From an uncultured Dokdonia sp. (lineage in GTDB: Bacteria; Bacteroidota; Bacteroidia; Flavobacteriales; Flavobacteriaceae), in the NCBI RefSeq assembly GCF_937910895.1, contig NZ_CALEMI010000052.1:62001-126000 (forward strand): a stretch of 64,000 nucleotides of DNA. Direction: 5' to 3'. A program made the translations under genes and the position numbers. The notes below the pieces were generated by a model. The model was not told the origin of the DNA. It did not search any database and saw only the letters and a program-made list of their open reading frames with translations. Positions 3,919-50,911 of this stretch are shown here, in pieces; position 1 is the stretch's first letter; the number at the start of each line of letters is the position of its first letter.

Positions 3919-6246
3919 TTATTTGAAGGATATTATATTCTCAATATTTTTTAATTGATTAGGATTTTTTTCAAATTGAGCTTCTTTATGCTCACCATCT
4001 CTCCATAATTGCAATTGATCTTTATAATGAATAGAGTTTACATGACCGCTTTGTCCTCCTGCAAGAACAGTGAATGCTTTTACTTGATCTTTTTTCATAT
4101 AATATACTGCTCGGTACACTGGATGAATACTTCCTGTATTTAGATTTATAGTATTTGAATTACCGCTTGCATCATTTATCTCTTCTCCGAGTCCTGGTAT
4201 AGAAAGTATATTGTCAATACTAAAATTTGATATCTCGCTATAGGTCGTACCTTCCCACTGATCCCCAAAATGTTTGGTTAATATCGAATCTGCTTTAGTC
4301 AAAATGACATTTACTTGTTCTTGTTTAGATATGTCTCCTGATAACTGATATTGATCATCTTTAAGATATTTTACATAATATTTAAATGATGGAACAAGTT
4401 TTACTTTAAGTTGATTCCGTGCAAATTTTTGAGATTCAATTGTGGTCATGATTCTTACAGATTCATATACTAAAGCCTCTTTACTATTAGAAGTCATTGT
4501 ACCATCCCATTGATTTAGAATATCAACAATCTTGGTGTTTTCTTGATTGATTTTATACTTTTCTAATAGACTTTTAAAATCATTGAATGAAAGATCTACT
4601 TGATCAGATTGCATTTTTTGAATTTCTTCTAGCTTCCAATCATCATTATTTTCTAATAGGTTATAAATTCTCTCTACTCTATAATCATCTTTTAATCCAT
4701 GATGACCAAAGTAAGCGTCATTTTGTATAGGCTGTTGATTTGCGGAGAGTAAGAACTTTTTATCGGGGTTATACGTTTTCCATAGTGTATCTATAGATTT
4801 TATCTGAGTATATGGTAATGATCCATCTAGTAAACCTCCTCTATAATTTTGCCCTCTATCTGGCAACTTTCCTGCGCAAACAATTCCTATATTATCTTCT
4901 ACATCACTGTATATAAAATTTTGAGGCGGGTATCCATAGTCTTTTAAAGCATTTGTGAAATTATCCCAATTTTGACTCTTCATCATTTTATACATCGATT
5001 CAATGGAGTAGCTCTTATTGGAAGCATACCAATGTTGTGCATAATATTGATCTCCTTCTTTAATTACTTTACCATGCACTGTGTTATTTTGAATCATTGT
5101 ATAATCATCATAGCCTTTTATTTTGATGGTATATTCCTTTTTTACAAATGGCACCCATTCTCCTTCATAATAATATGAGTTATCATCTTTTACTTTTAAA
5201 TGGTACCTATCTATAAGATCCCACTCACCATTAGTAATACCCCAAGAAATAGCATCATTATGCCCACTTATTATTACAGGTACCCCAGGTATAGAAAATC
5301 CATAAACATTTAAAGATCCATATATCAAGTGAGCTTCATAAAATGCCTCTGGAAGTGATAGTAATAAATGAGGATCATTAGCTAGCATTGTAGCCTGATT
5401 ATTTGTTTTTGTTTTACTAAGCGCCCAATTATTGCTTCCTACACCTTTATGAAATTGATTAGGATTCGAAAACTCGTTTATATTATTTTGTACTACAACC
5501 GTTTCTTCATATTGTGCCATAGCTGTATCTTGAACTATAGTGTGAGTAGAAGGTAAAATTGTTTTTAACCCTTCTGGTTGCATTGGGAAAAAGTATTTTT
5601 TCTCTTTTTCAGGTAGTGATGTAACCATCTCTTGATGCATCACATGCTGATCAAAATAGGTAAGGGTATAACTCATATACCAAGTCACTAATAATGAGTA
5701 TTGAGGTTTCCACATTTGAGGTTGTGATCCTATAGCCTTATAAAGCGGGTCTGTACTTTTATGATTAGTTAGATATTCATTAACTCCATCTGTATATGCC
5801 AATAAGTATTCATAAAACTCGGGAGATTTTTCTTTATAGGTTTCTAGTAATTCTTCTGACTTACGCTCAAACTCATAAGGTTTCCAAAAACTATCAGAAT
5901 CTAAGGTCTTATCTGACAATATCTCAGACATACGCCCTTGTACTGTTCTGGTTATTAATTCCATTTGGAAGTACCTATCTTTTGCATGCATAAAGCCTAA
6001 TCCAAAAGCAGCATCGTTTTGATTATTACTATAAATGTGAGGAATTCCTAGATCATCTATATACATATTAGGTTTATAATCACTCTCATAATTATTGATT
6101 CCATTTTCTTCTATTGGAACAGATAATAATCCCGTTTTATAAGAAAGTAACTCTCCTACAGAATTAAATGGTTTGAGTTTATAATTTGTAGCATATATCC
6201 ATACAATGCATAACACTAAAATAAGTGCTGTTTTTACTAGTTTCAT
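3919..6246 (-). CDS. Penicillin-acylase-family Ntn hydrolase (PvdQ-like role proposed)
   Basis: Periplasmic amide hydrolases of this family mature autocatalytically, freeing an N-terminal Ser nucleophile. The internal junction G|SNNWALS is visible, with Ser271 when counted from the start chosen here; an alpha-chain-like part precedes it (IPHIYS, ALGFMHAKDRYFQM type motifs). I chose the ATG at 6246, giving 775 residues, because it opens directly into a signal peptide or anchor (MKLVKTALILVL); an in-frame start 21 codons upstream would bury it. PvdQ removes the acyl chain from the pyoverdine precursor after export. Here the gene lies directly downstream of a cyclic-peptide-type exporter, so removal of an N-terminal acyl group or prodrug residue from the NRPS product is a reasonable inference. 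True penicillin substrates are not implied. Confidence 0.88.
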   Translation of the reverse strand: MKLVKTALILVLCIVWIYATNYKLKPFNSVGELLSYKTGLLSVPIEENGINNYESDYKPNMYIDDLGIPHIYSNNQNDAAFGLGFMHAKDRYFQMELITRTVQGRMSEILSDKTLDSDSFWKPYEFERKSEELLETYKEKSPEFYEYLLAYTDGVNEYLTNHKSTDPLYKAIGSQPQMWKPQYSLLVTWYMSYTLTYFDQHVMHQEMVTSLPEKEKKYFFPMQPEGLKTILPSTHTIVQDTAMAQYEETVVVQNNINEFSNPNQFHKGVGSNNWALSKTKTNNQATMLANDPHLLLSLPEAFYEAHLIYGSLNVYGFSIPGVPVIISGHNDAISWGITNGEWDLIDRYHLKVKDDNSYYYEGEWVPFVKKEYTIKIKGYDDYTMIQNNTVHGKVIKEGDQYYAQHWYASNKSYSIESMYKMMKSQNWDNFTNALKDYGYPPQNFIYSDVEDNIGIVCAGKLPDRGQNYRGGLLDGSLPYTQIKSIDTLWKTYNPDKKFLLSANQQPIQNDAYFGHHGLKDDYRVERIYNLLENNDDWKLEEIQKMQSDQVDLSFNDFKSLLEKYKINQENTKIVDILNQWDGTMTSNSKEALVYESVRIMTTIESQKFARNQLKVKLVPSFKYYVKYLKDDQYQLSGDISKQEQVNVILTKADSILTKHFGDQWEGTTYSEISNFSIDNILSIPGLGEEINDASGNSNTINLNTGSIHPVYRAVYYMKKDQVKAFTVLAGGQSGHVNSIHYKDQLQLWRDGEHKEAQFEKNPNQLKNIENIISFK

Positions 6247-6374
6247 GAGTATATAATTAAGAATTAATAAAAAGCCTGTTTTATAACGATTATAAAATAT
6301 AACCGTCATAAACTTGATAAAATCTTTATCAATTTCTGGCTCTTAAAATTTTAAAAAAAGTTTGTTGGCATGAA

Positions 6375-11577: not shown

Positions 11578-14500
11578 CTAATGCGATAATTTTCGAATCA
11601 TATTTGGTATAAAATCTTTTACATTGAATAAGCTCTTTTTATACTTATCATAGATTTTTTTATCACACATCAATTCAAGTTGAATTCCATTCTTCTTTAT
11701 GACACAACTTAGATCCAAATAAAGATCTCTTTTGAGCTTACAATCGACTATACTGAAATTCTGAAATTCGCCTTCTCTAAAAACACCTTCCATTTGTTTT
11801 ATATTTATAAATCCCTTCTTATAAGAGTCTATATCTATAGTTGTTTGTGTTAAAACATCTTTCCGAATAGTTTCATAAGGAATAGATTGGTGTTGACGTG
11901 CATTTAAATATTCTAATTGTACAGTACTGCATAAATCAGCACCTGTATTCTTAGCAAGTTTTATGGGTATAACATTATTAACAACTCCTAAAACACTTGA
12001 AGTATCAAAAACATCTGTAAAAGATTCTCTGCCGTTTACTAAAACTAATTGTATACTTGACTTGTTGTTAGAGCACTCTTGTAATAGAACTTGATGATAA
12101 GCCATGAATAAACCAGCTACAGGCACTCTCAGTTTTTTAGACAACCTTTCAATATCTTTGATTTCTGATGTGTCTATTAGCATTGTTTGTTTAATCCCTT
12201 TGTTTACATTATTCTTTTTACTTTTTTGAACATCTAATACTGGTATATCACCAAGGTAGTCCAACCAAAAATCACGAGATTTAATTCCTTGTGTAGATGT
12301 TAGATATTTTTGCTGCCAACTACTATAATGGAAATTAGAAACATGTTTTCTCCTTGTAGGCAAAACTCCTTTACTTATAAATTCTTCTAATGCGACATTG
12401 AATACGAGATCCGTGTGTAAATCTCCTAAGGCATGGCTTATTGTTACGACTAATATATCTTCTTTGATATTTTTTGAATCTTTAAGTACAAATAGCCGTA
12501 TCAATTCACCTTTGAAAAAATCATATTCTCTTTCTGATACTTTATTTATGTATTCTTTTACTAAAATAGTATTAGAAATATCAACATTCTTATAATCAAT
12601 ATGTAATGCCAATTTATCTAGTGCTAAATATTCTTGATATATTTCATCTCCTTCCTGTATAAATTGTAAATGAAGTTCTGGAAAACGAGCAAGAAAGCCT
12701 CTAAAGTGAAGATCTAACTCTTCTTTAGTACTAGAAGGAATCGTAAAGGGACCTAAAATTGCTTGAGAATCCTCATACCTCATCATGTACCTTTGGTTTT
12801 CAGATATTTGAATTCTATCTCCTACTTTCCAATTCTTACTTAAGAGAGCATCATATTCACAAAAATCTAGTTTCTTATTTGTAGTTAGCTCTCTTTCTGT
12901 ATTAGCAAGTAATACTGTTATTGCTTCTATATCTGTAGCAGTAAGCAAGTGCTCTGCTTTTATATCAAAGCCTATACTTTTTAACTCAAATAATAACTGG
13001 ATTAATTTTATAGAATCACCCCCTATATCATAAAAATTGTCTTTTAGACTCACCCGTTCTCTCTGGAGAACTTTTTTACATAAAGAGACTATTTCTTTTT
13101 CTAGGCTATTTCTTGGAGCGATAAACTCTATTCCATTATCTGTTTCTGTAATATCAATTTTAGACAATATTGTCTTATTTACTTTACCATTAGATGTGAG
13201 TGGAATTTCATCCAATTGAATAAAATAAGATGGAATCATATATGTCGGTAATCTTTTTAAGAGATACTCTCTAATAGAAGCAATATCTTGCTTTTCATCG
13301 GCTACTATATATGTAATAATTTTTGTTTCTCCAGTTTCAAACTCTTTTGCTAGAACGACCGATTCTTTGATATTTTTATAAGATTGTAATTGATATTCTA
13401 TTTCTCCTAGCTCTACTCGATTACCAAATATTTTCACCATATCATCTTTTCTACCAACATATTCTATATTACCATCGGTCCATCTTCTACCTATATCTCC
13501 TGTCTTATAAAGTTTCTCACCTTTAACAAATGGGCTCTCTACAAACTTATTTGTTATGTCTTCGCTTTCGTTAATATATCCTGCTGAAACACACTCACCA
13601 CTGATACATATCTCTCCTGTTACACCTACTGGAAGAATGTTTAAATAATTATCCAGTATATATACCTTTACATTTCCGATAGGTTTCCCAATCAAGATAT
13701 TGTCACTTGTAGTTACTATATTGCTAGAATACTTTATACTTTCTATTGAAGCTGCGATTTCCTTTTGTTCTTCAAGCATTATTTTTAAATCCTCAATAGT
13801 GGTATAAGGATTCATAAATACTGTTCTAAAAACAAGGTTTCTAATAATGTTTTCAGTTTTTTTGATTTGTGTATAAGAAACAAATGTGTTACCTCTCTTA
13901 AATTGTTCTTGTTGTATCTTACGATTTAGTTCATTTATAACTTCTAACTCATTATCTGTAAAGACCTCTTTATTTCTATAGTTTAAAGGTATATATCTAT
14001 ATAAAACAATGTTTAAATCTGGTTTATATAATAGCCTAAAAGATGGGTCTTCATTAATAAGTCTTGCGAATTCTTGAGCCGTATTGTAATTATATCTTAT
14101 TACTTGAGCAAAACCATTTTTTCCAAAAATTTTAAATGCTGCGTGTAAGAGTAAACACATAAAATTACGTGATCCTTCAACTGTATATTTCCCTAAATCA
14201 TAACTACCTTTTCTTGCTTGATAATGGGTATTATTCTCTGAAGATTCAACAAAAGAAGGGTCTTTAAATAGACAAATACTTAATCCTATTGGGATATATA
14301 ATTGTTTATGAGCACATACGGAAACAGAATTAGCTAATTGAATACCATCTAGTTTTTTAGCTATCTGATCATCCATCATAAAACTACCTCCAAAAGCAGC
14401 ATCTACATGATAATGTATGTTCTGTTCTTTTGCGATCTCTCCTATTGTTACTAAAGGGTCTATATTACCTGACTCTGTTGTTCCTGCAATTCCTACGATT

Positions 14501-17500
14501 CCTAAAACAAGTGTTTTATTATCTCTAAGAGTTTTTACTAAACTTGTTATTTCTTCTCTTATCGTTGCTACATCCTTATTTTCATAATCTAGCTCTACAA
14601 AAGATTTTGTGCCTAAGCCTAATAACTTTAGTGCTTTCCCAAAAGAATAGTGACACCATCTAGACCCCAATAAAACAACATCTTGATATCCATAAAAATC
14701 TAATGCTTTAATAAGCCCCTCTTTAGAGATACCATCAAATCCGTCTGTAGCTTTTAATAAATTATTAAGTGTGTAGTTAAGAGCCATAATATTGGACATG
14801 GTGCCTCCATTGGTAATTACTCCTAAAGCATCATCTGGTGCCTGAACATATTTTTTATAAAAAGCTTCTTCATTTTTATATATCAGATTATGGAAAATTC
14901 CTATTACTTGCTTTTCTACCAATGTAGAAATCATAGAGGTTTCAATTTTAACTTGATTTTGATTTAGTATGGTAACTAAAGAATTAAGCTCTCTAAATAT
15001 ATTAGGGATTAAACTTGTCATGTGTCCTACATAAGACGGAACCCCTACATTTACTACATTAGGCAATAGATCTGACTTTAAAAATTTAATATATTCTTCT
15101 ACATTTAATTGGGAGTTAAAGTCTACATTCTTAAAATGTTCTTGTTTTATAAGATTATCAAATGAATCTGAAATAATCTTATTTGAATTATCATGAGTAG
15201 TTATTAGTTGTTCAATTTCATTTTTCATAGAACAATCAAATAGATTGAACTTCTTAAATTTATTATATTCATTATAGGTGTCATAGTATGTAGCATCTGC
15301 TGTTACCTCGGTTGAACCATAAATATTTAACAGTCTCACATTACTACTACGCAAACTGTTATAAAATTTTTCAACATCGCTTTTCTTTAATGCTTCTCCA
15401 CTACTAATCCAAAGATTTAAATTTTGAAGTTTTTCTCTACATAATTCTGGATGCTTTATCAATTCTCTTAATAGAGAGGGAACAAGAACTATTCTAGACA
15501 CCTTATCTTTATGTAAGTTATCTGCAAATTTTTGAATAGAAAGGATTTCTTCTTTTTTATAAAAAACTAAAGGAATTCCTTTTAACAAGGGTCCATAAAA
15601 TTCCCAAATGTGATCTACAAATCCTATAGACGTTTTTGCACAACATACTTCATTGTCTTGAAATGGATAATTTTTCCACATCCAATGTAATCGATTATTA
15701 ACACTACTTGACTTTAATAAAACACCTTTAGGCATTCCTGTTGATCCAGAAGTATAAATAATAAACTCTATATCGCTTTTCTTTGATGGACTTATAATAT
15801 TAGACATAAACTCATATAAATTCATTTGAGTTAAAGTCTCTTGATTTATAGATCCTATACTTTTACTATCCTTTTCTATATATTGTATTCTTTCACGTGG
15901 AGTATTAGGATCAATAGGAATATAGATTGCTCCTACTTTTTTAATTGCTAATAACACAGCCATCAACTGATAGTCATGTGATAATGAGACAATTACTTTG
16001 TCATCACTTTTTATACCTAATACGTTAGATAAATAACTTGCATACTTATCTGAGAGATCATGTAGATTCTTATATGTCAATTCATTATCATTATTGATAA
16101 TAGCTATTGCATCTGGAGTTTTGTTTACCTGATCTTCAAATAGTTCAATTATTGATTTATTAGTTGGAAATGATACTTTGGTTTCGTTAAACGTAATTAA
16201 AAGTTCTTTTTCTTCAGAATCTGAAAGATAATTTAGATTTCTAATTTTTTCTTTAGGATCTTTTAAGATATCATTAAGGATACATTTGAAATGAATTAAG
16301 AATTGCTCTATCGTTTCTTTTACATATATATCTGTATTGAATGTGACTTCCACTGAGAGATATTCACCTATTTCTTCAAACGTAAAACAAAGATCATACT
16401 TGCTTACAGTTTCTTTATGATCTATAATTGCATTTAAATTTTCTATATTAATTCCCTTTCCACTTTCGATGGTTACTATATTTTGTAAAACAACCATGAC
16501 ATCAAAGATGGGATTTCGACTATTATCTCTTTTTAAATTGAGATCTTCCACAAGGCGGTCAAATGGATATTGTTGATGTTCATACGCTTTAAAAGTATTA
16601 TTCTTAATTTTATAAAATAATTCTTCAAAACTTTCTTCTTGTAATACTTCATTTCTTAATGCAATTGTATTCACATAAAAACCTATTTGATTTTCTAATT
16701 CTATATGATCCCTTCCTGCAGTAGGGCTTCCTATCACAAAGTCATTTTGAGATGTATATCTAGAAAATAAAGTATTGATTATTGCTAATAAACCGATAAA
16801 AAGACTTCCCTCTTTTTCTTGACAAAACTTCTTCAAATTACTTGTCAATTCTTTTGAAATAATAGTCTCCAAGCTCCACCCATTACTAGTATTTATTAGT
16901 GGGCGTTTCTTTTGAGAAGGTAAATCTAATAATGGTATTTCTGTTGAAAATTGATTTAACCAATATTCACTATGCTTTTTTGATACTTTGTCTGCTAATT
17001 GTTGTTGCTGCCAAGCTGCGTAATCTTTATATTGAATCCTTAAAGGAGCCAATTTTGGAATTGTGTTTGAACAATAGGCTTCATAATAATCTAATATATC
17101 ATTGGTTAAAACTTTCATTGACCAACCATCACTAATTATATGATGCATGTTATAATAAAACACAAAAGTATCTTCAGAAGCTTTCAAAATTGCTACTCTT
17201 AATAGGGGTCCATTTTCAAGATCAAAAGCGATCTTTGAATCTCTACTTATATACTCTTGTATTTTGAATTCTTTGTCAGAAACATCACTAAAATTCTCAT
17301 GACTAATTGAAAAATCAAATTCTTCTACTGGTAATATCATCTGTCTTACTTCACCATTTTTTTCTTCTTTAAAAACAGTACGTAAAATTTCATGTCTTTC
17401 AATAACACTATTAATTGCTTTCTCAAATTTTTGTATATCACAACCTCCTGTCAACACAGTTTGAGAGGGTATATTATACGCTATAGATTGATCTTCAAAT

Positions 17501-17760
17501 TGACTTAAAATCCATAAACGACGTTGCGCTGATGACAATGGATAATTTTTTTGTTTATCTATTGATTGTATATTTAAATAAGTAGTAGTATCAGACTTAT
17601 ATACTTTTACAAAATCAATAAGTGCGTCCTTATTTAATTTAATTTCTTCTATTAAAGAAGTATCTATAACACCTTTAGGAGCTTGAACATCTAATCTATC
17701 ATTGATGATATCCATTTTTACATCTAAAATTCTTAACTTATTTATTAACGTATCTATCAT
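11578..17760 (-). CDS. Terminal NRPS: TubC-C-A(beta-Ala, interrupted by PLP aspartate decarboxylase)-PCP-C
   Basis: 2060 residues. Domains in order: TubC-like N-terminal docking (1-52); condensation (about 72-510, HHIISDG at 206-212); adenylation N-part (about 535-835; A3 YTSGSTGMPKG at 669-679, A4 FVDHIWE at 714-720, A5 NIYGSTE at 812-818); an inserted PLP decarboxylase (about 838-1345); adenylation C-part (IGKPI at 1357, A6 GEICISG, A7 YKTGD at 1418, A8 GRKDDMVKI, A10 with Lys1526); PCP with GGDS (Ser1583); and a divergent terminal C domain (about 1640-2060, SHALGD at 1775-1780). The hand-read specificity code is V-D-W-V-I-S-I-A-D-K, matching the beta-Ala consensus VDxVISxADK. Loss of Asp235 agrees with a substrate lacking an alpha-amino group. 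No thioesterase follows. Last synthetase in transcriptional order, behind a hairpin. Confidence 0.95.
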   Translation of the reverse strand: MIDTLINKLRILDVKMDIINDRLDVQAPKGVIDTSLIEEIKLNKDALIDFVKVYKSDTTTYLNIQSIDKQKNYPLSSAQRRLWILSQFEDQSIAYNIPSQTVLTGGCDIQKFEKAINSVIERHEILRTVFKEEKNGEVRQMILPVEEFDFSISHENFSDVSDKEFKIQEYISRDSKIAFDLENGPLLRVAILKASEDTFVFYYNMHHIISDGWSMKVLTNDILDYYEAYCSNTIPKLAPLRIQYKDYAAWQQQQLADKVSKKHSEYWLNQFSTEIPLLDLPSQKKRPLINTSNGWSLETIISKELTSNLKKFCQEKEGSLFIGLLAIINTLFSRYTSQNDFVIGSPTAGRDHIELENQIGFYVNTIALRNEVLQEESFEELFYKIKNNTFKAYEHQQYPFDRLVEDLNLKRDNSRNPIFDVMVVLQNIVTIESGKGINIENLNAIIDHKETVSKYDLCFTFEEIGEYLSVEVTFNTDIYVKETIEQFLIHFKCILNDILKDPKEKIRNLNYLSDSEEKELLITFNETKVSFPTNKSIIELFEDQVNKTPDAIAIINNDNELTYKNLHDLSDKYASYLSNVLGIKSDDKVIVSLSHDYQLMAVLLAIKKVGAIYIPIDPNTPRERIQYIEKDSKSIGSINQETLTQMNLYEFMSNIISPSKKSDIEFIIYTSGSTGMPKGVLLKSSSVNNRLHWMWKNYPFQDNEVCCAKTSIGFVDHIWEFYGPLLKGIPLVFYKKEEILSIQKFADNLHKDKVSRIVLVPSLLRELIKHPELCREKLQNLNLWISSGEALKKSDVEKFYNSLRSSNVRLLNIYGSTEVTADATYYDTYNEYNKFKKFNLFDCSMKNEIEQLITTHDNSNKIISDSFDNLIKQEHFKNVDFNSQLNVEEYIKFLKSDLLPNVVNVGVPSYVGHMTSLIPNIFRELNSLVTILNQNQVKIETSMISTLVEKQVIGIFHNLIYKNEEAFYKKYVQAPDDALGVITNGGTMSNIMALNYTLNNLLKATDGFDGISKEGLIKALDFYGYQDVVLLGSRWCHYSFGKALKLLGLGTKSFVELDYENKDVATIREEITSLVKTLRDNKTLVLGIVGIAGTTESGNIDPLVTIGEIAKEQNIHYHVDAAFGGSFMMDDQIAKKLDGIQLANSVSVCAHKQLYIPIGLSICLFKDPSFVESSENNTHYQARKGSYDLGKYTVEGSRNFMCLLLHAAFKIFGKNGFAQVIRYNYNTAQEFARLINEDPSFRLLYKPDLNIVLYRYIPLNYRNKEVFTDNELEVINELNRKIQQEQFKRGNTFVSYTQIKKTENIIRNLVFRTVFMNPYTTIEDLKIMLEEQKEIAASIESIKYSSNIVTTSDNILIGKPIGNVKVYILDNYLNILPVGVTGEICISGECVSAGYINESEDITNKFVESPFVKGEKLYKTGDIGRRWTDGNIEYVGRKDDMVKIFGNRVELGEIEYQLQSYKNIKESVVLAKEFETGETKIITYIVADEKQDIASIREYLLKRLPTYMIPSYFIQLDEIPLTSNGKVNKTILSKIDITETDNGIEFIAPRNSLEKEIVSLCKKVLQRERVSLKDNFYDIGGDSIKLIQLLFELKSIGFDIKAEHLLTATDIEAITVLLANTERELTTNKKLDFCEYDALLSKNWKVGDRIQISENQRYMMRYEDSQAILGPFTIPSSTKEELDLHFRGFLARFPELHLQFIQEGDEIYQEYLALDKLALHIDYKNVDISNTILVKEYINKVSEREYDFFKGELIRLFVLKDSKNIKEDILVVTISHALGDLHTDLVFNVALEEFISKGVLPTRRKHVSNFHYSSWQQKYLTSTQGIKSRDFWLDYLGDIPVLDVQKSKKNNVNKGIKQTMLIDTSEIKDIERLSKKLRVPVAGLFMAYHQVLLQECSNNKSSIQLVLVNGRESFTDVFDTSSVLGVVNNVIPIKLAKNTGADLCSTVQLEYLNARQHQSIPYETIRKDVLTQTTIDIDSYKKGFINIKQMEGVFREGEFQNFSIVDCKLKRDLYLDLSCVIKKNGIQLELMCDKKIYDKYKKSLFNVKDFIPNMIRKLSH
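13711..15249 (-). other. PanP-type PLP-dependent aspartate decarboxylase domain inserted in the A domain
   Basis: About 510 residues (838-1345 of the NRPS) form a complete group II PLP decarboxylase in the same reading frame. Landmarks: VGHMTSLIP (911-919), NQNQVKIETS (933-942), TNGGTMSN (983-990), HYSFGKA (1037-1043), GIAGTTESGNIDPL (1090-1103), HVDAAFGG with cofactor Asp1120, and SVSVCAHKQLY with Schiff-base Lys1152. The C-terminal RGNTFVSYTQI and NPYTTIEDL segments are also present, so the fold looks whole. From memory these blocks match PanP, the PLP-dependent aspartate 1-decarboxylase of Vibrio and relatives (Asp -> beta-Ala + CO2), better than glutamate or aromatic decarboxylases. The substrate assignment is inference, strengthened by the beta-Ala code of the host A domain. 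Confidence 0.9.
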
Positions 17761-32590: not shown

Positions 32591-33583
32591 CTAAGATATA
32601 GAAACTATAATTTTACGTTCTCCTTGATAGGAGTTTCTACCGTGAGATGCTAGCATATTATCTAAAAATAGCACATCTCCTTTTTCCCAAGGAAACATTA
32701 TGGTCGCTTTTTTATATGCGTTTTTTAGTTCTTCAATTTCTTCTTTAGAAATTTCTGTTCCATCTCCAAAAAAAGTATTATTTGGAAGTTCTTCATCGGA
32801 TGTTACAGAATCTAAAATATCATTATTAAGCATATACTTATTAAAAAATAATCCGTGATTAAACCATGCTAACTCTTTAGTAATTGGATGCTCCCATATT
32901 GCTTTTTTAGTCCAAGTTAGAACCAACTGATCATCACTAACCCAATTAAAGTTCATTCCATTTTGGAGACATTCTTCTTCTACCATTTTCTTATCAGATG
33001 TCTGAAATACTTCTTGCCAATTGAGTCCTAGAACTCCACTTAGGTTTCTTCGGTACTGTATTCCTTTATTCAAGAATTTATTTCTTAGGGTTTCACTTAG
33101 GTTTTGTAAGATCAGTCTATTATCTGCTATTGGTGTTTCTCCTCTTAAAGTTGCCGGTATTATACAACAAAAAACAATTCTTGAAGGATGATTAGGTGCA
33201 TAAGAACTCTCACTATGCATATTGATTATTTGATCTTCAGGATAAGTTGTAGAGACATATACATTGTTTGACAATTCAAAACGTGGAGATGATCTAAAGG
33301 AATAATCTAGTAGGTCATTTGGAAACTTATTCATTAAAGTTTCAAACTTATCTACTGTATCAATTCCGAAACCTCTACATAATATCCCTCCATACTTTCT
33401 TAAATTATCTTCAAATTGAATTCTATTGTCAATTACCCAGCTATTTATGTCAAAACCAGCATGAACAGGCTTCATAACCATGGGTAATTTAATAGGGTTT
33501 TCAAAAAAGGAAACTTTGATCCCTTCATCGTCTGTTATCTTCTTAGTTGTCATTGTCTTAAGAAGGCTTAATCTATTTTTCAT
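32591..33583 (-). CDS. TauD/SyrP-like Fe(II)/2-oxoglutarate oxygenase (amino-acid hydroxylase)
   Basis: 330 residues. The iron triad is visible as His123 and Glu125 in MHSESSY and His314 in ASHGRNSY, with Arg323 (GERK) placed to bind 2-oxoglutarate. The block GETPIADNR (148-156) is typical of the SyrP-like group, which hydroxylates amino acids tethered to PCPs at the beta carbon. The start overlaps the stop of the upstream NRPS by four bases, so the two are translationally coupled. Candidate substrates are the Asn, or the Dab-like residue, loaded by the neighbouring modules; the sequence does not decide. A different TauD reaction, such as desaturation, is possible. Confidence 0.85.
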   Translation of the reverse strand: MKNRLSLLKTMTTKKITDDEGIKVSFFENPIKLPMVMKPVHAGFDINSWVIDNRIQFEDNLRKYGGILCRGFGIDTVDKFETLMNKFPNDLLDYSFRSSPRFELSNNVYVSTTYPEDQIINMHSESSYAPNHPSRIVFCCIIPATLRGETPIADNRLILQNLSETLRNKFLNKGIQYRRNLSGVLGLNWQEVFQTSDKKMVEEECLQNGMNFNWVSDDQLVLTWTKKAIWEHPITKELAWFNHGLFFNKYMLNNDILDSVTSDEELPNNTFFGDGTEISKEEIEELKNAYKKATIMFPWEKGDVLFLDNMLASHGRNSYQGERKIIVSIS

Positions 33584-36500: not shown

Positions 36501-37539
36501 TCTGTAGTACATTATCATCTGGCAAACTTGTTCCAATTGGCACATACGCACTTCCTGCTTTCCAAGTCCCTAAAATTGATTTTACCATATTGATAGATCG
36601 TGATAACATCACTCCAAAAAGATTATCTTTTTGAGCTTGATAGTTTTTTACGATATATCTAGAGAACTGGTTGGATTGTTTATATAAGTTTTCATACGTA
36701 ATTTGTTGACCTTGACTTTGAACGGCTATCGCTTTCTTATTATTCTTACATTGAGCATCAATTAAATCAACAATATTCTTATCTAAAGAGAAGTATGATG
36801 CTGGTTTATTAATTTCTTCTATAATGCTTTTTTCTTCTTCAGAACGATATTCTAGTTCTAAGATAGGTGCATACGTTTTTTCTAGAACCTCATCTATTAC
36901 TATCTTGAAGTTTTCACTAAATAATTTTAAAAGTTTTGTATCATATAATTCTCCTTTAAAATTTATTTCTAAATAAGGTTTTGCTTCTTTCAATTCAAAC
37001 CTGAACATTGTTTTTATTAAATCTCCAAATTCTTCATTTTCTGTTTGTCCTATAACAATCCCAAACTGTGTTGCTTTATCTAGAATTCCTTTTTCTATAA
37101 GATTAAGTCTCGCTTCGTCAAATGTTATTGTGTATTGGATGGCTTCTAAAAGTGATTCTTTTAATAAAGAAAACAACTCTTTAAAGTTATTTTCTAGCTT
37201 TATTTCTGGTTTAACAAAAAATGCTTCTTCTATCTCTCTAGTATGACTGAACTGGTTAACTGGCGATAAGAATAAAAAGTTCTCTTCATAATGAGATAAT
37301 AGAATACTTAATGTGCTTACATAAAAATTATAAATTAACACATCAGATCCATTACATAGATTATTAATTTTCTGTACTATTTCTGGGTTTAAATATGTTA
37401 TTTCAATAGTATTGGTGTTTGCATTTTTTTGATTTGTTCCTCCAAAAAATGAAGCTTCGTCAGCATCTACAATCTCTTGAAGATGCTTATTCCAAAACTC
37501 TTCTGTTTTTGCTTTTTGTATTATTATATTTTTATTCAT
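33580..37539 (-). CDS. NRPS: partial C lobe-A(Dab-like)-PCP-C
   Basis: 1319 residues. Residues 1-245 resemble only the C-terminal lobe of a condensation domain (it begins EEFWNKHL and has no HHxxxDG). The A domain (about 260-760; YTSGSTGKPKG near 411) has code D-I-W-E-I-N-T-D-D-K, with three acidic positions (278, 330, 331). It resembles the diaminobutyrate code DIWELTADDK as I remember it. PCP has GGHSL near 801; an intact C domain follows (HHIIGDG near 996, then YPFDKLVED) and ends the protein. The gene overlaps the aminotransferase stop (ATGA) and the oxygenase start by four bases each, making a tight three-gene unit. The C domain must work with the A-PCP of the next protein. Confidence 0.93.
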   Translation of the reverse strand: MNKNIIIQKAKTEEFWNKHLQEIVDADEASFFGGTNQKNANTNTIEITYLNPEIVQKINNLCNGSDVLIYNFYVSTLSILLSHYEENFLFLSPVNQFSHTREIEEAFFVKPEIKLENNFKELFSLLKESLLEAIQYTITFDEARLNLIEKGILDKATQFGIVIGQTENEEFGDLIKTMFRFELKEAKPYLEINFKGELYDTKLLKLFSENFKIVIDEVLEKTYAPILELEYRSEEEKSIIEEINKPASYFSLDKNIVDLIDAQCKNNKKAIAVQSQGQQITYENLYKQSNQFSRYIVKNYQAQKDNLFGVMLSRSINMVKSILGTWKAGSAYVPIGTSLPDDNVLQIIENANLKAIITDDASVLEQLSRLDVNVPIIDLTKIQNDVEKQLDTPLEKTIDDNDLAYVIYTSGSTGKPKGVMIEHLGMINHIGAKIKELSIDSDSIVAQNAPHTFDISVWQLFSSLVTGGKCIIYDTETIADVKSFFTSIATDQITVLELVPSYLLELLLHIEDKKEIDSLNLESIILNAETLTKSMVNRWLSLYPSIPIVNTYGATEASDDISHFIMTEVPENYSVPVMRYPIQNFEVHIVNENMRKVPVGVQGEILLASPCVGRGYLNDKEKTEKSFLKGPTKGITSKKRIYKTGDLGKFLPNGTLEFIGRNDNQVKILGHRIELDAIENVISALPEVKNTKAIADTDKQRITLYYIADQEIEKSVLESTILNKLPKYMLPSVFVQMDIFPLTKNGKIDKKSLPDPDQYRTQDKQYVAPENEIEEKIVAIWKTILQVDEVSALDNFFDLGGHSLKLMRLKNEYHTMFNVKIEFQDFFRNTTLRSHAILIETSEVNIFTEIQKIEEAESYPVSHGQKRLWIISQLEGASSAYNMPSQIELNGNQDLEVLKKAILATVERHEILRTVFKLDNKGNLRQWVLSKDEFDFTFDYQDYSNEENQNQKVQEYVDRDMQIAFDLEKGPLLRIALLNLSDDKQVLYYNIHHIIGDGWSTEVLIKDVLTYYEAFQNNTLPKLPELKIQYKDYAYWENEQTTKQEYQEHKEYWLNTFSGVLPLLSIPGQKERSSTKNYNGYTLGTYVSLKDTQKLKSFCNEHGGSLFMGVLTIWNILFYKYTRQKDFVIGTPIAGRGHSDLKNQIGFYMNTLALRNQIDPEDTFVKTFRAIKDTTLQSYNHQTYPFDKLVEDVNANRHLGRNPIYDVMLSFHNIINNVSETEVKEVDEILDMGEMKSKLDLLVNFMERGKNIYFDINYDSDLYDRSIIEKLMRDFKHLLEKLLIHQEAKIKDVNYQVEKIQNFKKKNLHKLKTIKTNMV

Positions 37540-38900
37540 CGTAGTACAGTCTCTTTTTTTAATTCTATAGTTACTTCTTCAATACATTCTTTTATTGCAT
37601 GTACGATCTCATCTAATTGTTCTTCATTAATAGTTAATGGAGGGGTAATTAGGATATGGTCTCCTGCTACTCCATCTACAGAGCCTTTGCCAGGATATAG
37701 TACAACTCCTTTTTGAATTGATTTTTCTCCAATTTTTTTAGAAATCCCTAATTCTGGTGGGAATGGAGACTTGGTTACTTTGTCTTGAACGAGTTCTATA
37801 CCGCATTGTAATCCTACTCCTCTAATGTCTCCAACCATATCATACTGACGTAGTACTTCTAATTTTTTAAGAAATAATGCGCCCATATCTTTTGATCTTC
37901 TTACAAGTTGCTCTTTCTCAATAATGTCTAACACTACTGTTCCTACAGCTGCTCCTACTGGGTTACAGGAGAATGTATGTCCTCCAAGGAATGCTGTTTT
38001 TGAATCTTCTAGTGGCTGTATTACTTTTTCTGAAGCAATAACAGCAGATAATGGATAGTATCCTCCACTAATTCCTTTTCCTGCGGCTATAATATCTGGG
38101 GTTACCCCGTAATTGTTAATCCCAAAGTTTTCTCCTGTTCTTCCGAAGCCAGAAAGAATTTCGTCTGAGATAAATAAAATTCCATATTTCTGACAGATTT
38201 CGTACATCCCTCTAAAATAATTTTTAGGAGGTGGCACGGCTCCCATTGCTGCTGCAATTACAGGTTCTGCAATAAAAGCAGCTACTGTTTCTGGACCCGT
38301 TTCTAGAATTGTTGCTTCAAATTCTTGAAGTAAACTTTGAACATATTCTTGCTCTGAGAATTGTGACGGTCTTCTATAATTATATGCGGGAGATATGTGT
38401 GGGAAGTTGTTTAGCCACTTGGTGTATAATTGCCTTCTAGCTTTCATCCCTCCGATATCTAACATAAAAACAGAATTTCCATGGTAAGTATTCCAACGAG
38501 ATATGATTTTATATCTGCTATTCTCTCCTCGTACTTGATGATATTGTAGTGCTAGTTTTACTGCATTTTCTACAGCTTCTGTCCCACTCATCACTGTCCA
38601 AGATTTTACAAATCCTTTAGGAGCAAAGTCTACTAATCTTTGTAAGTAATTCTCTACGATATCTGAGTTAAAAGCATGTGTTGGTAATACTGCTATTTTT
38701 GAAACCTGCTGACATATTACATCTGCAATTTCTTGTCTCCCATGTCCCAAATTAGACACAGCTGAGGAACCAGAAGATCCATCTAAGTATCTTCTTCCTT
38801 GTTCATCATAGAGGTAGACTCCTTTTCCATATTGAATTTTAGCGTATTGCTTATTCATATCTGGGCAAACTGCCATTGAGTGTATTAGTGGTTTGATCAT
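37536..38900 (-). CDS. Class III PLP aminotransferase (possible diaminobutyrate-forming)
   Basis: 454 residues, standard length for the class. Seen: GTEAVE (106-111, phosphate site), Asp246 in FISDE (pyridine nitrogen), and Lys275 in AAGKGISGG (Schiff base). The family moves an amino group between a terminal amine or aldehyde and an alpha-keto acid. Coupled by a four-base overlap to the NRPS whose A domain has a diaminobutyrate-like code, it may convert aspartate 4-semialdehyde to L-2,4-diaminobutyrate for that module. This is inference: the same class includes beta-alanine:pyruvate and ornithine enzymes, and the sequence alone does not settle the substrate. A Flavo-1-like RNA element lies just upstream. 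Confidence 0.88.
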   Translation of the reverse strand: MIKPLIHSMAVCPDMNKQYAKIQYGKGVYLYDEQGRRYLDGSSGSSAVSNLGHGRQEIADVICQQVSKIAVLPTHAFNSDIVENYLQRLVDFAPKGFVKSWTVMSGTEAVENAVKLALQYHQVRGENSRYKIISRWNTYHGNSVFMLDIGGMKARRQLYTKWLNNFPHISPAYNYRRPSQFSEQEYVQSLLQEFEATILETGPETVAAFIAEPVIAAAMGAVPPPKNYFRGMYEICQKYGILFISDEILSGFGRTGENFGINNYGVTPDIIAAGKGISGGYYPLSAVIASEKVIQPLEDSKTAFLGGHTFSCNPVGAAVGTVVLDIIEKEQLVRRSKDMGALFLKKLEVLRQYDMVGDIRGVGLQCGIELVQDKVTKSPFPPELGISKKIGEKSIQKGVVLYPGKGSVDGVAGDHILITPPLTINEEQLDEIVHAIKECIEEVTIELKKETVLR

Positions 38901-49306: not shown

Positions 49307-50911
49307 TTAATATTCAATCGTTTTCTCTCCGAATAATCGTTCTGCATCTATTCCTCTTTTTATACACTCTTCCACCAATTTGTTGGACTCAATAATAGGC
49401 TTTGACTCATCTGTATATTTTAAAGAACTTATAAATACCAACCATGGTTCTAATCCCATAGCATATACGAATACATTTTTAGGACTAAATATATCGACCA
49501 GTCTCTCTCCTTGTTTAAAATCACTCCCTGCCAATCTGCGTGACTGATCCATCTCTCGCGGCAACTTATCATACATTAATGGACCGTATAACCAACTTAA
49601 GGGAGCTCCTTCGCATTCCATTCCTAAAAAAAGTACATCTATATTACCTACAATAGCTTGAATTCTTTCATACACTTTAGGTTCTACGTTACAAGAATCC
49701 GCTGCAAATAATACTTTTAATTTATTATGTAACTCTACGTGAAAACATAATTTTGATCTGATATCAATATCCGAATGCTCTCCTATAAAAGGTAGACCCG
49801 TAATCACACATCTGTCTAACTCTATCGTTTCCATGTCATCCAATTCTATGACATTATTAAAGCCTATTGCATTAAACATTAGTTTAAGGTTAGGGTCCTG
49901 TAAATTTCCTTTTCCTGAAGAAGGAACAACTATGTTTTTAATGCTATGTCTTAATTGTAATAGTGTCTCTAGAAGTACGTGATCTTGGTGATTATGTGTA
50001 ATTAATACATAATCTATCTCTTCTGGTAAATCGTTAATCGTGTATCTGTTTACATCTGTTTCATAACCATCGTAACTAATAACTGGATCTACTAAAATTG
50101 AGATCTCACTTGTTTCTACCAATACACAAGCATGACCAAAATATCGAGTTCTGATGCCGTCTCCTGTGTACTTTTCATATTTTGCCGGTGCTTCTTTTGT
50201 AAAAAATTCCTTAAAAAGCTCTTCCTGTTCTGGGCTAACTCCTAAGTCCTTCATGATTTCTTTGTAATCACCAGGAACTCTTTTCATTCTAAATAACTTA
50301 TCAATCAAATTATTTTTAAAATCAAGATCTAAGTGAATTAAATTAGCATCATTCAATCTTGGTGTACTTAGTACAAATGATCGTGCATCATCTGAGCCTA
50401 CTAGTTGTAATGATATAGATTGAGTTGACTCATCATAAAATTCACTCTTATACAACAATGATTCAAAAAACCTGAAATTTGGTTTATTATTAAGATCATA
50501 GTATAACTCAACCATACCTTGCAAAACTTCTGGCACTTCCTTGTATAAAGGATCTAAAGAATATCCTATTGCATTTTTTTGCAACATAGTATTCAAATCA
50601 TGTATTGCATTATACAATTCTAACATATTCTCTCTCTTAGAAAGTGTGTTTTCAAACAATTCCTTTATCTCTTCTACTCTTCCTCCTTCATAATCTATAA
50701 AAGGTCCTCCTATCATTTCTGGTCTTTTAACTGCAGCAGCATGTGTCTTAGGATTTTTAATATAGGATTGCATGATCTTAAGGTGTCGCTCTTTTATATT
50801 CATTGCTGCTGTAGCAGGAGACACTAAATGTGACCAAGCATACCATCTATCAATTAAAGCTTCTATTGCTACATTTAGTTTTAGATAATAGTTTGCGTTC
50901 TCGTCTTTCAT
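49307..50911 (-). CDS. CmlA-type di-iron beta-hydroxylase (metallo-beta-lactamase fold)
   Basis: 534 residues, almost the length of CmlA, the chloramphenicol enzyme that beta-hydroxylates an aromatic amino acid held on a PCP. The N-terminal about 245 residues form a separate helical domain. The C-terminal part has the metallo-beta-lactamase motif THNHQDH (His306, His308, Asp310, His311). The later ligand is Glu378 in GEHSD, where hydrolases have His; Asp405 (AADSC) follows. The Glu replacement is the CmlA hallmark. The gene sits between the Ser-Gly and Tyr-Val synthetases, so the Tyr loaded by the next protein is the first candidate for beta-hydroxylation. FrsH of the FR900359 pathway is another member of this group. 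Substrate is inference; family is well supported. Confidence 0.9.
   Translation of the reverse strand: MKDENANYYLKLNVAIEALIDRWYAWSHLVSPATAAMNIKERHLKIMQSYIKNPKTHAAAVKRPEMIGGPFIDYEGGRVEEIKELFENTLSKRENMLELYNAIHDLNTMLQKNAIGYSLDPLYKEVPEVLQGMVELYYDLNNKPNFRFFESLLYKSEFYDESTQSISLQLVGSDDARSFVLSTPRLNDANLIHLDLDFKNNLIDKLFRMKRVPGDYKEIMKDLGVSPEQEELFKEFFTKEAPAKYEKYTGDGIRTRYFGHACVLVETSEISILVDPVISYDGYETDVNRYTINDLPEEIDYVLITHNHQDHVLLETLLQLRHSIKNIVVPSSGKGNLQDPNLKLMFNAIGFNNVIELDDMETIELDRCVITGLPFIGEHSDIDIRSKLCFHVELHNKLKVLFAADSCNVEPKVYERIQAIVGNIDVLFLGMECEGAPLSWLYGPLMYDKLPREMDQSRRLAGSDFKQGERLVDIFSPKNVFVYAMGLEPWLVFISSLKYTDESKPIIESNKLVEECIKRGIDAERLFGEKTIEY

Follow-up and report, generated by a model that had tools for sequence, protein, structure and literature searches.

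An embedded decarboxylase in an adenylation domain

We describe a nonribosomal peptide synthetase (NRPS) gene in which a complete pyridoxal phosphate (PLP)-dependent decarboxylase lies in frame inside an adenylation (A) domain, between motifs A5 and A6. The gene belongs to a 64,000-nucleotide stretch of DNA from an uncultured Dokdonia sp. (Flavobacteriaceae, Bacteroidota; assembly GCF_937910895.1, contig NZ_CALEMI010000052.1, positions 62,001 to 126,000), hereafter the window. The insert probably decarboxylates free aspartate, the enclosing A domain then adenylating and loading the resulting beta-alanine. The domain anatomy, the conserved residues, the insertion site, its recurrence, the pocket code and the link to free PanP-like genes were all obtained directly.

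The gene is a single open reading frame (11578-17760, minus strand, as are all parts of this protein given below) of 2060 amino acids (aa) with no internal stop. Its translation and Pfam matches read, in order, TubC_N docking domain, condensation (C) domain, N-terminal part of the A domain, PLP decarboxylase, C-terminal part of the A domain, peptidyl carrier protein (PCP) and a second C domain. The N-terminal core of the A domain (15277-16140, residues 541-828) carries A3, A4 and A5 and yields the best of the two AMP-binding stretches in the frame (residues 541-827, profile positions 1-331 of 384). The domain stops after A5 (NIYGSTEVTADATYYDT, last residue 828), the A5 motif itself, NIYGSTE, standing immediately ahead of the insert (15307-15327, residues 812-818). 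It restarts at IGKPI (residue 1357), and this C-terminal part (13126-13692, residues 1357-1545) carries IGKPI, A6 (GEICISG, from residue 1382) and the later motifs (YKTGDIG; A10, LTSNGKVNK), with an AMP-binding_C match at residues 1453-1526. The insert (13693-15276, residues 829-1356, about 528 aa) is flanked by DATYYDT on one side and IGKPI on the other, and matches Pyridoxal_deC at residues 928-1256. As expected of an interrupted A domain, its motifs flank the insert within a single frame, and the insert is a complete second catalytic domain, as judged by Pfam (profile 60-374 of 375), the NCBIfam model TIGR03799 (54-522 of 522) and the catalytic residues.

The first-pass annotation had recognised a complete decarboxylase between A5 and A6, with intact A motifs and no frameshift, and Pfam, NCBIfam, the motif positions and the unbroken frame bear it out; the span that it gave (13711-15249, residues 838-1350) falls within the insert, whose natural bounds are wider. 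From the start of A5 to the start of A6, the window protein measures 570 aa, as against 52-53 in the three uninterrupted relatives in which the motif script located A6. Counted from 15 residues past the A5 start to IGKPI, the span is 528-538 residues where the domain is interrupted (six cases) and 10-19 where it is not (12 cases). Misassembly or a frameshift as the source of this layout is very unlikely because six other genomes share it. A recent foreign insertion is likewise rejected, as judged by the flat GC content across the gene (0.25-0.32) and by the joint divergence of insert and host described below. Within the window, neither tandem repeats nor tRNAs were found.

Recurrence of the insert and an uninterrupted sister domain

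The insert occurs in a long NRPS frame in seven genomes: the window's own, three Kordia (of 11 Kordia genomes, one of the carriers being K. periserrulae DSM 25731, phylum Bacteroidota) and three congeners from a second family of the class (the non-Kordia relatives G1451, G1415 and G1759). These come from 1,978 genome look-ups with the insert as query, in which many genomes were counted repeatedly, the larger sets were sampled and scoring was confined to the best candidates in each genome (own genome 1, genus 18, family 397, order 395, phylum 395, Kordia 11, class 365, genus of G1415 60, family of G1451 336). In the window's genus, only the window's own genome of the 18 carries the insert (E up to 1e-40). 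Identity to the window's insert is 55-57% in Kordia, 51% in G1451 and 41% in G1415 and G1759, and pairwise identity among inserts goes as low as 37%. The search for further A domains with this insert, which the first-pass annotation had suggested, was thus fruitful: the site between A5 and A6 is common to all seven genomes. The protein context varies: in the window, the module precedes a final C domain; in K. periserrulae, the interrupted domain is the second of its kind in a 3559-aa protein; in G1415, the protein has a single module. At a looser threshold, the family search added four homologues in shorter frames (479-539 aa, 30-33% identical), which we took as outgroup. A contig search with two short peptides from the N-terminal part of the insert, which is no census, returned Kordia periserrulae only, and a search of viral contigs gave no lead.

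The insert and the host A core have diverged together: their divergences are correlated (Spearman 0.91 over 15 non-independent pairs). In the insert tree, in which 10 of the 22 rows have an unusual letter make-up, six inserts fall on one side of a branch and 12 free homologues on the other (support 85/94). In the A-core tree, the interrupted state requires three changes, with G1415 placed elsewhere on weak support; G1759 is in neither tree. The two trees differ on a single origin of the fusion.

The history is complicated by G1451, which has a second A domain with the same type of pocket (Val-Asp, or V-D, see below; code VDCLSSIAD) and no interruption (L056:4794-12707, minus strand), its gene being separated from that of the interrupted domain by a 616-aa frame. 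At the insertion site, this sister has a loop of 19 residues, against 536 in the interrupted domain; the loop is 12-13 residues long in five of the six other uninterrupted V-D domains and 18 in that of Halomonas. In the A-core tree, the uninterrupted domain groups with those of the window and Kordia as their sister (94/95), and the interrupted G1451 domain joins them in a wider clade (99/96). Being nested among interrupted domains, it implies either that an insert was lost or that inserts were gained more than once. It is therefore a possible natural empty site, which may have lost its insert or may keep the ancestral state.

Kinship of the insert to PanP

Among NCBIfam models, TIGR03799 (PanP) is by far the best match to the insert (449.6-453.9 bits, E 1e-134 to 6e-136), the runner-up being the 2,4-diaminobutyrate (Dab) decarboxylase family at 112 bits. 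The PanP type predicted by the first-pass annotation thus holds as to the closest family, with which the insert shares its catalytic residues; the insert groups with PanP but, on score, cannot be classed as a PanP equivalog, and it further differs from PanP in being embedded in an A domain. In the alignment of six inserts with 12 free homologues (gaps ignored), Asp1120 (in HVDAAFGG, 14401-14403) and Lys1152 (in AHKQ, 14305-14307), both foreseen by that annotation, never vary, and neither do His1037, Tyr1180 and Arg1198. We take Asp1120 to be the partner of the PLP ring nitrogen, Lys1152 the Schiff-base lysine, His1037 the stacking histidine and Tyr1180 the loop tyrosine, so that all these landmarks of group II decarboxylases are conserved in the insert. 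Two further decarboxylases of the window's genome, in 476-aa and 483-aa frames, are only distantly related.

A beta-amino-acid pattern in the host pocket

The pocket of the host A domain reads V-D-W-V-I-S-I-A-D, completed by the A10 lysine, in the alignment of A domains. Domains that activate alpha-amino acids have Asp at position 235 (GrsA numbering); here, Val235-Asp236 conforms to the pattern of beta-amino-acid domains, in which 235 is not Asp and Asp stands at 236. Its closest match is presumably the beta-alanine code, VDWVISLADK; a literature search on this code found no paper. Of 28 loci scanned, 24 yielded A3-bearing segments, 85 of them distinct, and a V-D or I-D pocket is present in 13: all six interrupted domains and 7 of the 79 others. 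The chance of six out of six would be 3.9e-6 under independence, a guide only, given related sequences and a choice of loci that was based on PanP. Outside the counted set, the interrupted domain of G1759 is also V-D (FVDH), which brings the interrupted domains to seven out of seven. As for the seven uninterrupted V-D segments, six lie near a free PanP-like gene and one near an interrupted domain (G1451).

Free PanP-like genes beside synthetases

The neighbourhoods of 13 plasmid-borne homologues of the insert, out of 180 matching records, were examined. Nine lie among NRPS or polyketide synthase (PKS) genes (Nostoc, Gloeocapsopsis, Chroococcidiopsis, four Mycetohabitans, Paenibacillus and Halomonas; the Nostoc locus is unannotated and its A domains were found in open reading frames), and in six of the nine loci the stretch read also contains a V-D A domain. 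Three cyanobacterial plasmids (L040, L047 and L044) carry PKS/NRPS clusters with a free panP-like gene. Of the remaining four, the Cupriavidus basilensis locus has no NRPS gene and that of Cupriavidus P-10 yielded no A domain; those of C. necator and Aeromonas fall outside the A-domain scan. Where a free PanP-like gene neighbours a beta-amino-acid A domain, the pair resembles an unfused form of the decarboxylase/A-domain unit. The PanP homologue of Mycetohabitans B5 is annotated in pieces and that of Paenibacillus is short (413-aa frame); the PanP gene of M. rhizoxinica B49 is whole. The unit looks to be decaying in M. endofungorum B5 (L045) and in M. rhizoxinica B49 (L011).

All six insert-bearing genomes tested (G1759 was left out) retain panD, which rules out the insert as the only source of beta-alanine in the cell. 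The insert is thus probably not for coenzyme A and looks dedicated to the assembly line.

Proposed mechanism

We propose that the PanP-like domain holds PLP on Lys1152 and strips the alpha-carboxylate from free L-aspartate to give beta-alanine, that the surrounding A domain adenylates this product and transfers it to the adjacent PCP (12919-13095, residues 1556-1614 by Pfam), the proposed beta-alanine carrier, and that the terminal C-like domain acts on the chain afterwards. The decarboxylation and adenylation steps are suggested by family and pocket, the rest by module order. The fusion would replace a separate panP gene beside the synthetase and provide local supply at a fixed stoichiometry. 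Fold-type I PLP enzymes are homodimers or homotetramers (PMC3870968) with the active site between subunits, and two synthetase chains would therefore probably pair through the decarboxylase domain. The activity, the substrate, the order of steps and the dimerisation are what we infer, and we do not claim obligatory channelling. The idea of an A domain that produces its substrate itself was already in the first-pass annotation; it survives as the best reading, in that beta-alanine agrees both with the pocket code and with the clusters that carry free PanP-like genes. Taken as a whole, a broader proposal strikes us as rather doubtful: a lineage of self-feeding A domains in which the insert, acting before adenylation, hands beta-alanine to the enclosing domain, an obligate dimer imposes a dimeric assembly line and A5-A6 is an additional insertion point.

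Weighing the alternatives

Several observations weigh against the proposed mechanism. The insert scores below the curated TIGR03799 cut-off of 606.1 bits, failing the equivalog test, and so do four other inserts (438.4-458.9 bits, the five scored inserts spanning 438-459); the substrate could therefore differ. Free homologues fall on both sides of the cut-off, Halomonas below it (437 bits), Nostoc (606.2) and Mycetohabitans B49 (782.9) above. Three of the nine loci with a free gene gave no V-D domain within the stretch covered: Mycetohabitans B47 and B5 have four A segments apiece, all without V-D, and the Chroococcidiopsis stretch yielded no A segment. In Mycetohabitans B49, the V-D A domain is broken by a stop codon 260 residues past A3. 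In G1451, one decarboxylase may serve two A domains, at odds with strictly private delivery; the presence of an uninterrupted V-D sister and of panD in the same cells implies that supply in place is not strictly needed. Last, the VinN/VinO precedent, as described in PMC11284099, is one of decarboxylation after loading only.

This precedent inspires the alternative that survives best, which we nevertheless consider unlikely: the A domain would activate aspartate, treated as a beta-amino acid, through its side-chain carboxylate and the PLP domain would then decarboxylate the aspartyl-S-PCP. In the 13 V-D domains, no basic residue occurs at the nine pocket positions read, and all have D or N at position 331, where VinN would use an arginine for the second carboxylate; this may speak against loading of aspartate. 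The closest family, PanP, acts on free aspartate, which also argues for decarboxylation first. On the other side, an insert within the A domain is close to the PCP, VinN loads 3-methylaspartate and not 3-aminoisobutyrate, VinO requires the thioester on the carrier VinL (PMC11284099), and FlvN is described as recognising aspartate as VinN does.

Less likely still, the insert would decarboxylate glutamate, Dab or cysteine sulfinate, and the module would load the product. Scores under the PanP cut-off leave room for such a substrate, the solved relatives of the insert include proteins labelled as decarboxylases of Dab, of glutamate, of cysteine sulfinate or of other group II types, and, for a comparable embedded domain (JamL, see below), the table of PMC3870968 places it with Dab decarboxylase while the text likens it to glutamate decarboxylase. 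However, the PanP model outscores the Dab model by more than 300 bits in the five inserts scored, and V-D A domains also stand near the free homologues that pass the cut-off (Nostoc and Mycetohabitans B49). Finally, it is highly improbable that the insert is catalytically idle and retained as a dimerisation or scaffold element, a role that the oligomeric habit of fold-type I enzymes would suit, but one at odds with catalytic landmarks invariant in six out of six inserts of such low pairwise identity.

Remaining domains and surrounding cluster

Ahead of the interrupted A domain, the protein has the TubC_N docking domain (residues 2-50, Pfam) and the first of two Condensation stretches found by Pfam (16198-17556, residues 69-521), with an intact HHIISDG motif in the translation. 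The second stretch, the terminal condensation-like domain (11581-12843, start approximate), has SHALGD in place of the usual HHxxxDG and no PCP after it; it may serve chain release or cyclisation.

The gene cluster (window positions 476-63998) extends past the window: the gene cut at the right edge is 2151 aa long in L028, with another NRPS gene (at least 3440 aa) upstream. Apart from its NRPS genes, the cluster encodes a CmlA-like diiron hydroxylase (49307-50911), a TauD-type dioxygenase (32591-33583) and a class III aminotransferase (37536-38900), together with a free thioesterase, an ATP-binding cassette transporter, an outer-membrane beta-barrel protein and a phosphopantetheinyl transferase. 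At the cluster end, a penicillin-amidase family protein (3919-6309, minus strand) might cleave an acyl group off the product or serve self-protection.

Comparison with known systems

The first-pass annotation held a carbon-carbon lyase in an A domain to be unheard of, which is wrong: in 2013, Milano et al. (PMC3870968) listed JamL, of the Lyngbya majuscula jamaicamide synthetase, as C-A-PLP4(Pyridoxal_deC)-A-carrier protein, with a decarboxylase embedded in the adenylation domain and a precise function described as not clarified. In domain layout, the level at which the two were compared, the window protein matches JamL (UniProt Q6E7J8), which belongs to a cyanobacterial PKS-NRPS hybrid, unlike the window NRPS. 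Jamaicamides contain beta-alanine. PMC3870968 suggests that the N-terminal domain was lost on embedding, whereas about 75 residues precede the conserved GHM motif in the window insert. A term search of the main text of PMC2799420 and PMC8460268 returned nothing on the JamL insert. The wider literature search found no A5-A6 insert and no activity for an embedded decarboxylase, which says little because the main catalogues of interrupted A domains and the jamaicamide paper lay outside it. Solanimycin SolG, considered as a further carrier, was rejected, as it is described as a serine module. JamL is thus the known earlier example of an embedded decarboxylase, to which we add a second phylum, a mapped site, a pocket code, counterparts in trans and an empty-site sister. 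Where the 2013 survey had one A domain with an embedded decarboxylase, there are now seven further, all at one site; with a matching pocket code, free counterparts in other phyla and an empty-site sister in one cluster, the question of function becomes directly testable.

Supply of beta-alanine by a separate protein has a parallel in destruxin biosynthesis, where the aspartate decarboxylase DtxS4 provides it to the NRPS in trans (PMC6737921). The cluster-borne panP-like genes would do likewise, DtxS4 and their products being separate proteins, unlike the embedded insert. VinN/VinO of vicenistatin biosynthesis similarly pairs beta-amino-acid adenylation with a PLP decarboxylase, but through separate proteins and with decarboxylation on the carrier, whereas the window unit is one chain.

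The interrupted A domains described in PMC11355689 and PMC8949500 (TioS, TioN, KtzH) resemble the window protein in nesting a second enzyme in an A domain within one frame. Their inserts (methyltransferase, oxidase, monooxygenase or ketoreductase) lie at other sites, A8-A9 and A2-A3 according to these reviews; A4-A5 is the site of the monooxygenase inserts of myxothiazol and melithiazol (PMC10204066) and is also named in PMC8097286. Methyltransferase inserts act after loading (PMC11355689), whereas the window insert most likely acts before adenylation. If the insert does feed its host, A domains are able to produce a substrate besides selecting it, and the loop between A5 and A6 would be a candidate engineering site for modules that supply their own unusual building block. 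A5-A6 would then join the reported A2-A3, A4-A5 and A8-A9 sites, with an enzyme that, unlike the methyltransferase inserts, acts before adenylation.

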